From: a virus
IMG/VR virus record: IMGVR_UViG_3300020595_000117
Coordinates: 1-32,365 of that record
Reading direction: 5' to 3' (one strand)
DNA length: 32,365 nucleotides
Numbering within the stretch: the first letter of the stretch is position 1; each line of letters opens with the position of its first letter. A program made the translations under genes and the position numbers. The notes below the pieces were generated by a model. The model was not told where the DNA came from and made no database searches. It saw nothing but the letters and a program-made list of their open reading frames with translations. This document shows positions 11,128 through 16,163 of the stretch, one piece after another.

Positions 11128-11312
11128 GATCTATAGCTTTTCAGAACAGTATTCTTAACGCTCTTCATGGTTATACGATGCACCTTGTTGTCCTCAAATA
11201 GTTTAGCTCGTAGACGATGGGCATCGTATGGTGTGAACACTGTAGATACAAACTCCTCATGCTGATTGACGTATGTGTTCTTGTAAACCTTGATTGCTTT
11301 ACTGGCTATCAT
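11124..11312 (-). CDS. Basic hypothetical protein, 62 aa
   Basis: The product is lysine- and arginine-rich (MIASKAIKVYKNTYVNQHEE at the start; KNTVLKSYRS at the end) and probably small alpha/beta. It lies between a HTH protein and a membrane micropeptide, joined to the first by a one-base TAATG junction and to the second by ATGA. Its basic charge could fit nucleic acid binding. No family is recognised. Confidence 0.65.
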   Translation of the reverse strand: MIASKAIKVYKNTYVNQHEEFVSTVFTPYDAHRLRAKLFEDNKVHRITMKSVKNTVLKSYRS

Positions 11313-14281: not shown

Positions 14282-14872
14282 TTATATGTTGTGGATGCGT
14301 TTCCATGTTGTCCATGTGATAGCTTGCAATTCATGCGGCTTAACTTTCACACGCTTGGCAGCTGTTACATAGGCGGCTTGCAATTCACGATACTGTTTCT
14401 TGCCCATGTTTGTTTTGTCAGATGTAAGGCCTTCACGCTTGCCCCTTGCAATATTCAATGCGTGCCCATCAATAGTTACTTCATCAAGCCCACGAATATT
14501 AGAGTAGAAAGAGCGGATCTTCTGCCCATTGAGGCGGGAAAGAATGTCTTCATCTGTTGTCAGGTCATCCTCTAAGATAGACCACGCCTTCTGCTTCATC
14601 GTGTTATAGCAGGACACTTTGAAGTCATCTGTTGTGTCGCCACTGATCCACGCTTGGCACATAGTTAGAGCGTCCTTGCAATTCCGTTCCCATCTGTTGT
14701 TAGGCGATAGTGCCGCCATAACGCCGATCACTGTTGTCTCTGGAATGTTAGTCTCTTTTGCAATCCATGCCGCCATGCGCTTTGCTCTATCGTACCATTC
14801 AACGCCATCCGATACGTCTGACACTGTGGCAATGCGGTATGTCTTAAGGATATTTCTCACATAATTTGTCAT
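14282..14872 (-). CDS. Putative helix-hairpin-helix DNA-glycosylase-like phage protein
   Basis: This 196-residue protein is the first gene of the leftward block. A conserved-looking segment (VMAALSPNNRWERNCKDAL) at about 51-69 is followed by a helical region with QKIRSFYSNI and then VTIDGHALNIARG (about 132-144). The last segment resembles the VDxHxxR region of HhH-GPD DNA glycosylases, where the Asp is catalytic (D135 here). A canonical GxG hairpin is not obvious, so the similarity could be superficial. Related proteins occur in many phages without known function. Possible roles are base excision or DNA hypermodification, next to an orphan methyltransferase. Confidence 0.72.
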   Translation of the reverse strand: MTNYVRNILKTYRIATVSDVSDGVEWYDRAKRMAAWIAKETNIPETTVIGVMAALSPNNRWERNCKDALTMCQAWISGDTTDDFKVSCYNTMKQKAWSILEDDLTTDEDILSRLNGQKIRSFYSNIRGLDEVTIDGHALNIARGKREGLTSDKTNMGKKQYRELQAAYVTAAKRVKVKPHELQAITWTTWKRIHNI

Positions 14873-15032
14873 TGTCTTACTCTTTCTGTTTTGTGTTACT
14901 TTCTACAATCAATAGGACATACTTCAAAAGAGATGTACAATAAAAAATACAATTCCTGGTCAGAAACTTTAAAGCGTGACATTTGAGCAACATTAAAGAT
15001 CCAGGTTTTTATCGTGCTATATAGTAGTGCAG

Positions 15033-15115
15033 AAGAGACGTAGCATATAAGCGATTACTTATATAAGAGCCAGGACATATAAGAGCTTACTTATATAAGA
15101 GATGCAGCATATAAA
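15033..15115. repeat. Three-copy 32-bp direct repeat array (iteron-like)
   Basis: AAGAG occurs at 15033, 15065 and 15097, and CATATAA at 15044, 15076 and 15108, each exactly 32 bp apart. Copies one and two share a 26-bp core (15044-15069 and 15076-15101) with two mismatches. Each core contains an inverted repeat ATATAAG-N6-CTTATAT (15045-15064 and 15077-15096). The third copy is truncated after CATATAA and runs into the first TGTGATCACA palindrome. Regular spacing of about three helical turns suggests binding of several protein copies on one face of the helix, as at iteron origins or operators. Confidence 0.85.
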
Positions 15116-15199
15116 TGTGATCACAAAAAAGAGGGGTATGGTATTTGTGATCACATATTGTTGGGGTAGGGTATTTCATACACGGCTTTTGTGATCACA
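15116..15199. repeat. Three TGTGATCACA palindromes with a repeated GGGGTA-GGTATTT spacer
   Basis: The perfect 10-bp palindrome TGTGATCACA is at 15116-15125, 15146-15155 and 15190-15199. Between the copies, GGGGTATGGTATTT (15133-15146) and GGGGTAGGGTATTT (15163-15176) repeat with the same 30-bp offset as palindromes one and two, so this is a second tandem array. The half-sites resemble TGTGA/TCACA of CRP-type regulators but lack the 6-bp spacer. A phage repressor or initiator site is more likely. Confidence 0.85.
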
Positions 15200-15341
15200 A
15201 ACACAAATGAAAAAACGCCCTATAATTTCACGCTATATTGAGCCGAATGATGATGTAACAGTATAGAATTACCTATAAAACAACAGCTTAAACAGATAAA
15301 TCACCTAGTTTTGCGTGATAGTAGCACAAAACATAGCAAAA

Positions 15342-15376
15342 GGGGGGGTGTGCGTGGGCCATGGGGGGTGTGGCGG
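15342..15376 (+). other. G-run cluster, possible G-quadruplex
   Basis: The plus strand has runs of 7 G (15342-15348), 3 G (15356-15358) and 6 G (15363-15368), then GG at 15372 and 15375, in an otherwise AT-rich region. The first run can be split into two GGG tracts, giving four tracts with loops of 1, 7 and 4 nt, which fits a G-quadruplex. Location between repeat arrays and late promoters suggests a structural role in replication or transcription. Homopolymer length may also be affected by sequencing error. Confidence 0.55.
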
Positions 15377-15525
15377 TACGTATATATACACTAATACACA
15401 CACGGGGTTTTTAGCTTTGCCCTAGTTTTGCCTTATTTAGTCGTATACATGGTGCATATATATCACACTTTACTATAAAGTTGTAACATTTAGTAACTTC
15501 TTTACAAGTATGTGCATTTTAGGGG

Positions 15526-15553
15526 TTGACCAGGGTGTTTCTATGGGTATAAC
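15526..15553 (+). promoter_or_regulatory. Sigma-70-like promoter, rightward
   Basis: TTGACC (15526-15531) and TATAAC (15548-15553) are separated by 16 bp, each one base from the consensus hexamer. It points toward the late block and lies about 350 bp upstream of the first late gene. A transcript from here would cross the inverted repeat at 15572-15632. Confidence 0.5.
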
Positions 15554-15571
15554 TGCGGAGCAGGAGCACAC

Positions 15572-15632
15572 AGAGTAATACTCTTAGAGTTAAAACTAAA
15601 GTAAAGTAATAAATAAAGAAGAGTATTACTCT
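15572..15632. repeat. Inverted repeat AGAGTAATACTCTT / AAGAGTATTACTCT
   Basis: Positions 15572-15585 and 15619-15632 are exact 14-bp inverted copies separated by 33 bp, and each arm is itself nearly palindromic. As RNA this can form a long stem; as DNA it offers two equivalent operator-like sites just downstream of the TTGACC/TATAAC pair. A third partial copy, AGTAATACTCT, is at 15816-15826. Confidence 0.7.
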
Positions 15633-15669
15633 ATAAGAGAGTGTTACAAAAAGGATAGTGGACATAGGT

Positions 15670-15746
15670 AAGTTATAACTCTCTAAGTTTTAACTAAGAA
15701 AGTTTTAACTATAGGGTTGACAGTATTATTAGTTATAATGTACACT
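15670..15746 (+). promoter_or_regulatory. Candidate late promoter region with AAGTTTTAACTA repeats
   Basis: AAGTTATAACT (15670-15680) and two AAGTTTTAACTA copies (15685-15696 and 15700-15711) lead into AACTATAGGG (15707-15716). TTGACA (15717-15722) and TATAAT (15734-15739) follow. The last two hexamers match consensus but are only 11 bp apart. TTGACA with TACACT (15741-15746) at 18 bp is an alternative pair. AACTATAGGG also resembles the start of T7-type single-subunit polymerase promoters. The region looks regulatory, but the exact start site is not resolved. Confidence 0.45.
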
Positions 15747-15783
15747 ATATACAAGTAACACATATAAACTTGTATAAACAATA

Positions 15784-15826
15784 AGTGTTACACTACTGGT
15801 ACGTGTTACACTCTAAGTAATACTCT
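15784..15826. repeat. GTGTTACACT direct repeats
   Basis: GTGTTACACT occurs at 15785-15794 and 15803-15812, 18 bp apart, followed by AGTAATACTCT (15816-15826). GTGTTACA also occurs at 15641-15648. The short repeats are near-palindromic and could be protein-binding sites upstream of the first late gene. Confidence 0.5.
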
Positions 15827-15905
15827 CTCCTCCCTCACTCTCCTCATACTTAGTTTGCGGCACGTACCACTTTCTCCCCTTTGTATAATAAAAGTATTGA
15901 CATTC

Positions 15906-16163
15906 ATGTCTAAACAAATAAAACTATACGCATCTGATTCCGTATTAGAAGAGTTTTACTCTGCTTTAGCGTCAAATGATGTAAAAGCTTTCCAGCGTGT
16001 ACATATTCCTCGTAGTGAAGTGTTTTACACTAGAGCACACCTACAGGAAGTCTTCCCTGATAGAGAGTTAACCTTAGATTACGTAGAACGAATGATGTAT
16101 TTAGAAGGTCTACTTGATCGTAAAGACGTACTAGACCCCGATAGAGAGCGAGACTATGGCTAG
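15906..16163 (+). CDS. Hypothetical protein, 85 aa, first gene of the rightward block
   Basis: The product begins MSKQIKLYASDSVLEEFYSA and is predicted mostly helical and acidic, ending DVLDPDRERDYG. The ATG at 15906 is preferred; a TTG at 15855 would add 17 residues (upstream Ser/Pro/Leu-rich) that do not look like protein. There is no clear Shine-Dalgarno sequence, but a TATAAT (15884-15889) lies 17 nt upstream, so the transcript could be almost leaderless. It overlaps the HNH gene by 8 nt. The function is unknown. Confidence 0.7.
   Translation: MSKQIKLYASDSVLEEFYSALASNDVKAFQRVHIPRSEVFYTRAHLQEVFPDRELTLDYVERMMYLEGLLDRKDVLDPDRERDYG

Follow-up and report, generated by a model that had tools for sequence, protein, structure and literature searches.

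Iteron-type origins of replication, such as plasmid Rep iterons and the lambda O sites, are built of regular direct repeats in AT-rich non-coding DNA, with units of approximately 18–22 bp. Repeated sites of another type are the operators of GntR-type regulators that carry an FCD domain. These operators, exemplified by that of Atu1419 from Agrobacterium fabrum (ATGTATACAT), are perfect 10-bp palindromes found more than once close to the promoters that they control (PMC7797058). An FCD regulator was shown to occupy 10-bp palindromes in tetrameric form, and DNA loops were observed by electron microscopy (PMC7797058).

HMO-2011-type phages have been described as dominant in the ocean and as broadly distributed there (PMC9038755). 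Promoters and intergenic sites are not mentioned in that work, and nothing was found on how these phages switch their genes on. Here, we describe two groups of repeats in the divergent intergenic region of such a phage, and we propose a class of candidate regulators that may act there. The combination of a conserved operator and a named candidate regulator class turns gene switching in this group into a testable question.

The divergent intergenic region of the window

The window, i.e., the whole stretch of 32,365 nucleotides that was analysed (a 32-kb IMG/VR record), belongs to an HMO-2011-type marine podovirus related to Roseobacter phages CRP-2, CRP-603, and CRP-207. Its structural genes share 74–86% DNA identity with those of CRP-207, CRP-2, and CRP-603, and its DNA polymerase is 57–76% identical to that of HMO-2011-type phages. 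The CxxCxGxG motifs reported for this group (PMC9038755) are seen in the DNA polymerase ORF of the window. Hosts of the HMO-2011-type phages considered here are RCA roseobacters and SAR116.

Leftward genes end at 14872 and rightward genes start at 15906, with a single non-coding gap of approximately 1 kb between them. This divergent intergenic control region (14873..15905), delimited by the ORFs, has the lowest GC content of the window and coincides with the skew switch. The first leftward gene (14282..14872, minus strand) encodes a DUF7178 protein (PF23802, E 2.7e-42), while the first rightward gene (15906..16163, plus strand), whose start was set by a family alignment, encodes a conserved all-helical protein of 85 aa (model pLDDT 75). 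A probable rightward promoter, TTGACC-N16-TATAAC with GGG upstream, can be read in the sequence at 15526..15553 on the plus strand. The same layout occurs in CRP-207, CRP-1, CRP-345, HMO-2011, and genome G001, and the consensus promoter scan did not return this promoter. On the other side, between the repeats described below and the leftward gene, a conserved GTGCTATATAGTAGTGC element at 15014..15030 on the minus strand is a possible leftward −10. A similar element recurs at the same position in relatives, in either orientation; no −35 was recognised for this candidate, and by consensus it is not convincing as a promoter.

Further repeats were noted in and around the gap. The stretch from 15570 to 15850, which follows the probable rightward promoter and precedes the first rightward gene, contains approximately ten short repeats, palindromic or nearly so, of the type AGTTATAACT, AGTTTTAACT, GAGTATTACTC, and AGTGTTACACT, suggestive of another operator or leader-RNA array; such repeats also occur in CRP-207, CRP-1, HMO-2011, L018, and L223. 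In L018 and L026, the final 300–400 bases before the leftward gene contain a conserved non-coding block, ACGTTATTTGA...CCACCTAGGC...GCCGATAATGG..., which is missing from the window and may be a structured leader RNA; Rfam searches of the window, L018, and L026 gave no match.

Array A and the B sites

The first group of repeats was originally noticed as a 32-bp iteron-like array, and the observations behind that description hold. AAGAG lies at 15033, 15065, and 15097, with one further copy at 15129, and CATATAA at 15044, 15076, and 15108, all at 32-bp spacing; the 26-mers at 15044 and 15076 differ by two mismatches, and ATATAAG-N6-CTTATAT is found twice. Within the gap, tandem self-matching peaks at 42/64 for period 32, a value not equalled in any of 300 dinucleotide shuffles (periods 8–60, maximum 36). 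It is the unit that has to be revised, since a core recurs every 16 bp: CATATAAGCG at 15044, TATATAAGAG at 15060, CATATAAGAG at 15076, TATATAAGAG at 15092, and a degenerate fifth, CATATAAATG, at 15108. Period 16 alone gives a self-match of 38/64, compared with 0/500 shuffles. The 32-bp register arises because the spacers alternate between the 16-bp cores, so that 32 bp corresponds to two units, and the 32-bp iteron unit was replaced by a 16-bp one. Array A, as we call it, thus spans 15033..15117 with the minus-strand core CTCTTATAT (plus-strand ATATAAGAG), and its minus strand reads TTTATATGCTGCAT / CTCTTATATAAGTAAG / CTCTTATATGTCCTGG / CTCTTATATAAGTAAT / CGCTTATATGCTACGT / CTCTTCTGC.

The interval given in the earlier note omitted a second group of repeats, three perfect TGTGATCACA palindromes referred to here as B sites. 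Site B3 (15116..15125) abuts array A, B2 (15146..15155) lies 30 bp from B3, and B1 (15190..15199) lies 44 bp from B2. No 10-bp palindrome occurred three times in any of 500 shuffles of the gap. Perfect TGTGATCACA is largely restricted to the divergent gap: among 37 complete or long records, there were 0–4 copies per record, almost always clustered where present, with one stray extra copy outside the gap in each of G003 and G006.

B sites recur in most relatives, unlike array A, which is rare among them; in this comparison, which covers mostly metagenomic fragments and a biased sample of loci fetched via the left-hand gene and via the palindrome itself, the B sites are far more conserved than array A. 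Clusters of TGTGATCACA were found in the gaps of CRP-1, CRP-2, CRP-345, CRP-603, CRP-13, and most long contigs tested, and among the IMG/VR matches listed, 111 of 118 contigs with paired TGTGATCACA carry proteins of the HMO-2011-type assemblage. The gap is present without TGTGATCACA in G001, HMO-2011, CRP-207, and CRP-9; therefore, the B sites, if they matter, must be replaceable. Phages CRP-3, CRP-207, CRP-212, CRP-235, and CRP-5, whose host is strain FZCC0040, are likewise devoid of B sites. In G001 (L018), GATTGTTC/GAACAATC repeats lie approximately 780–900 bases into the gap, where the A and B arrays would be. Three TGTGATCACA sites 20–24 bp apart were also seen in the viral contigs L117, L144, L147, L148, and L159, with no protein similarity to the CRP/HMO group in L147 and L159. 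A literature search for TGTGATCACA returned unrelated papers only.

The distances between neighbouring B sites vary and fall into a few classes (20–23, 29–34, 39–48, 52–55, and 74–75 bp, with few others, in 117 distinct clusters), which are multiples of approximately 10.5 bp and place the sites on one helix face. The phasing value R was 0.62 over the 117 clusters and 0.74 with one cluster per homology group (15 groups), a value reached in 0/5000 draws from a null of uniform distances, whereby the homology groups may still share some ancestry. Sites arranged in this way, at differing distances yet on one helix face, suggest a single protein whose dimers interact or are bridged. Such phased spacings provide a strong and simple prediction on the binding mode of the protein.

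FCD-GntR proteins as candidate regulators

The B sites resemble the FCD-GntR operators in being perfect 10-bp palindromes present in several copies near promoters, and their spacing would allow FCD-GntR dimers to line up along one side of the helix or a tetramer to bridge the sites. In alphaproteobacteria, a TGTGATCACA pair was found in three of 385 genomes, and TTTGTGATCACAAA in five of 385, compared with one for the reversed control. The sites at L488, L491, and L492 are next to either a GntR gene or the partner gene divergent from it, and at L488 they lie on both flanks of the gene for an FCD-GntR regulator. Both GntR regulators tested contain PF00392 and PF07729 (GntR plus FCD).

Phylogenetic footprinting extended this association. 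The element TTGTGATCACAA is located upstream of its own FCD-GntR gene in 12/12 orthologs with 60–100% identity, at most one base off outside the core, and often in two copies 50–57 bp apart. Because of this footprint, the palindrome is regarded as the operator of an FCD-GntR clade, which belongs to an alphaproteobacterial family. The element was found upstream of 0/3 homologs at 35–40% identity, and the palindrome was absent from GntR homologs on plasmids of Rhodobacterales, Rhizobium, Shinella, and Microvirga (36–45% identity). Since homologs at 35–45% identity are without the palindrome, the operator seems confined to a narrow clade. In the literature searched, TTGTGATCACAA was not found as an FCD-GntR upstream element, and a query combining GntR, FCD, and TGTGATC gave no papers. 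In the members inspected among L501–L512, the FCD-GntR gene with the TTGTGATCACAA element is divergent from an aminotransferase gene.

The phage locus differs from the known FCD-GntR systems in that the phage encodes no GntR protein and its sites occur in 2–4 copies at variable but phased distances. PF00392 was detected in 0/16 phage genomes, with controls detected, so that no cognate GntR gene was found together with the sites. Because the phages encode no such protein, a host source of the regulator is proposed; the B sites would be GntR-like operators, not part of a GntR system of the phage itself.

We propose, with a probability of roughly 0.5, that the region is a cluster of sites controlling leftward early transcription rather than primarily an iteron origin, in which the B sites would be bound by a host FCD-GntR protein and array A would serve as an accessory operator. 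The three in-phase B sites would be occupied by an FCD-GntR-type regulator, most likely a host protein. Dimers bound along the same face of the helix, or one tetramer bridging the sites, could then control a leftward early promoter just past array A; the array has the last B site on one side and the candidate leftward promoter element on the other. The same complex could also act on the rightward promoter approximately 330 bp away, while array A would be an accessory operator of variable copy number for a second protein. Occupancy of the B sites, the host as the source of the protein, the presence of a leftward promoter, and the sign of regulation are features that we infer.

More tentatively, and at clearly lower odds, a host metabolite sensed by the FCD-GntR protein may set phage early transcription or the choice between lysis and lysogeny through 2–4 phased operators that govern the divergent early/late switch, with other operators swapped in where the host or the regulator differs. 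If true, gene expression in an abundant marine phage assemblage would be tied to the metabolism of the host.

Other readings of the gap

The earlier note had expected an origin or a master operator in this only divergent gap of the window. Several operator-like arrays, clustered there and conserved across relatives, agree with the operator part of this expectation. They could be bound by a repressor or regulator encoded by the phage, forming an immunity-type switch whose specificity is swapped between relatives, though we consider this unlikely. It would fit G001, in which the replication genes are 95–99% identical to those of the window and another repeat takes the place of both A and B; the integrase (61% identity) and the adjacent 62-aa gene (48%) changed together with the repeats. 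G018, whose replication genes are also nearly identical, has the same arrays as the window and keeps the integrase at 100% and its neighbour at 98%. The contrast between G001 and G018 or the window resembles an exchanged control module; however, this co-swap is a single contrast, and none of the window genes occurs in every site-bearing genome while being missing from every site-lacking one. The first rightward gene was rejected as the source of a B-binding protein, as it is 98% identical in B-less G001, and the model of its product matches no solved fold in the PDB. The HTH proteins at 11312 and 13458, put forward before as candidate binders, do not track array A: no Mor-like HTH gene was detected in L019/L195, where the array is longest, and G001 carries a 100% identical HTH_39 gene but no array A.

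We give similarly low credence to the proposal that array A, the palindromes, or both are initiator-binding iterons of a phage origin. The gap is AT-rich, array A shares with iteron origins its regularly spaced direct repeats in non-coding DNA, and the cumulative GC-skew minimum does fall within or at the gap in all nine complete genomes tested. Gene direction flips at the same place, though, and the skew is confounded with it. Unlike iteron origins, array A has 16-bp units, no cognate initiator, and no DnaA boxes (0 in the gap), and none of the proteins scanned is evidently an initiator, in agreement with the first reading of the sequence. The repeats also vary among close relatives, against the conservation that was expected of them: with the same flanking genes and sites, there are 0, 3, approximately 5, or approximately 10 units of array A. 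Three units with non-alternating spacers are present in L136/L221, and approximately ten in L195/L019. L025 retains all three B sites as well as the leftward element and the rightward promoter but has other DNA where array A would be; array A is likewise missing from G001. With a unit number of 0 to approximately 10 and persisting surroundings, an essential origin at array A is unlikely. The B sites, in turn, are present in CRP-13, G006, and G008, in which no homolog of the window DnaB helicase or primase was seen; persisting with unrelated replication genes, they do not follow the replication module.

Similar arrays elsewhere bear on the origin question in another way. Limnohabitans phage DC31 and seven viral contigs contain a similar 16-bp CTTATAT array adjoining 2–6 DnaA boxes, a point in favour of an origin. 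These origin-like regions of freshwater phages share with array A the CTTATAT core and the 16-bp period, but in them several TTATCCACA DnaA boxes adjoin the array, whereas the window has none. In DC31 itself (PQ492658, approximately 20357; L495 4001–4200), a 16-bp CTTATATAAG array lies together with further repeats and several TTATCCACA boxes in a part of the record that is unannotated, and the region looks like an origin. In Bacillaceae, the ArsR/SmtB operators of arsR-arsB-arsC operons consist of CTTATATAA with 16-bp spacing, approximately 30 bp upstream of arsR (L299, L302, L307, L320, and others). They resemble array A; no ArsR or ars genes were seen in the window, and we take the likeness as convergence on an AT-rich palindrome. 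Six 16-bp CTTATAT units were also observed upstream of a 216-aa gene in L217 (6686–6781), a 106-kb contig that is possibly a plasmid. As the CTTATAT palindrome is found in such differing settings, sequence alone does not reveal the function of the array.

Somewhat less probable still is that array A is a neutral tandem duplication, functionless in itself, beside functional palindromes. Its copy number varies freely and its units are alike within a genome; some viral CTTATAT arrays are plain satellites, and bacterial ones are mostly tandem satellites or the ArsR operators of Bacillaceae. Against neutrality, the cores remain intact while the spacers diverge (per-16 identity 0.56–0.72), as do the spacers in many of the viral arrays. 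The 16-bp spacing is moreover favoured in unrelated viruses: three CTTATAT motifs at this spacing occur in 59 viral contigs, versus 15 and 16 for four other spacing combinations each. An accessory operator, as in the proposed control cluster, would be consistent with these data.

That the gap is an attP region containing arm-type integrase sites or excisionase sites is very improbable, and this reading was rejected: the integrase gene is 4 kb away and array A occurs together with an integrase of 100% identity in G018 and L195, but no tRNA-like attP core was seen in the window, and the attachment sites of relatives are elsewhere, in the left arm. CRP-3 integrates into tRNA-Met (PMC6918029), and its attachment primers and tRNA end map at approximately 2.8–3.6 kb in that arm, where similar tRNA ends are also located in CRP-235, CRP-212, and CRP-738. 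Sequences resembling a tRNA 3′ end, GGTTCGAGTCCTGCAGGGTGGGCCA and its variants, were additionally observed in CRP-13 (4030), CRP-9 (6198), and G008 (50563), and are probably the attP cores of these phages.
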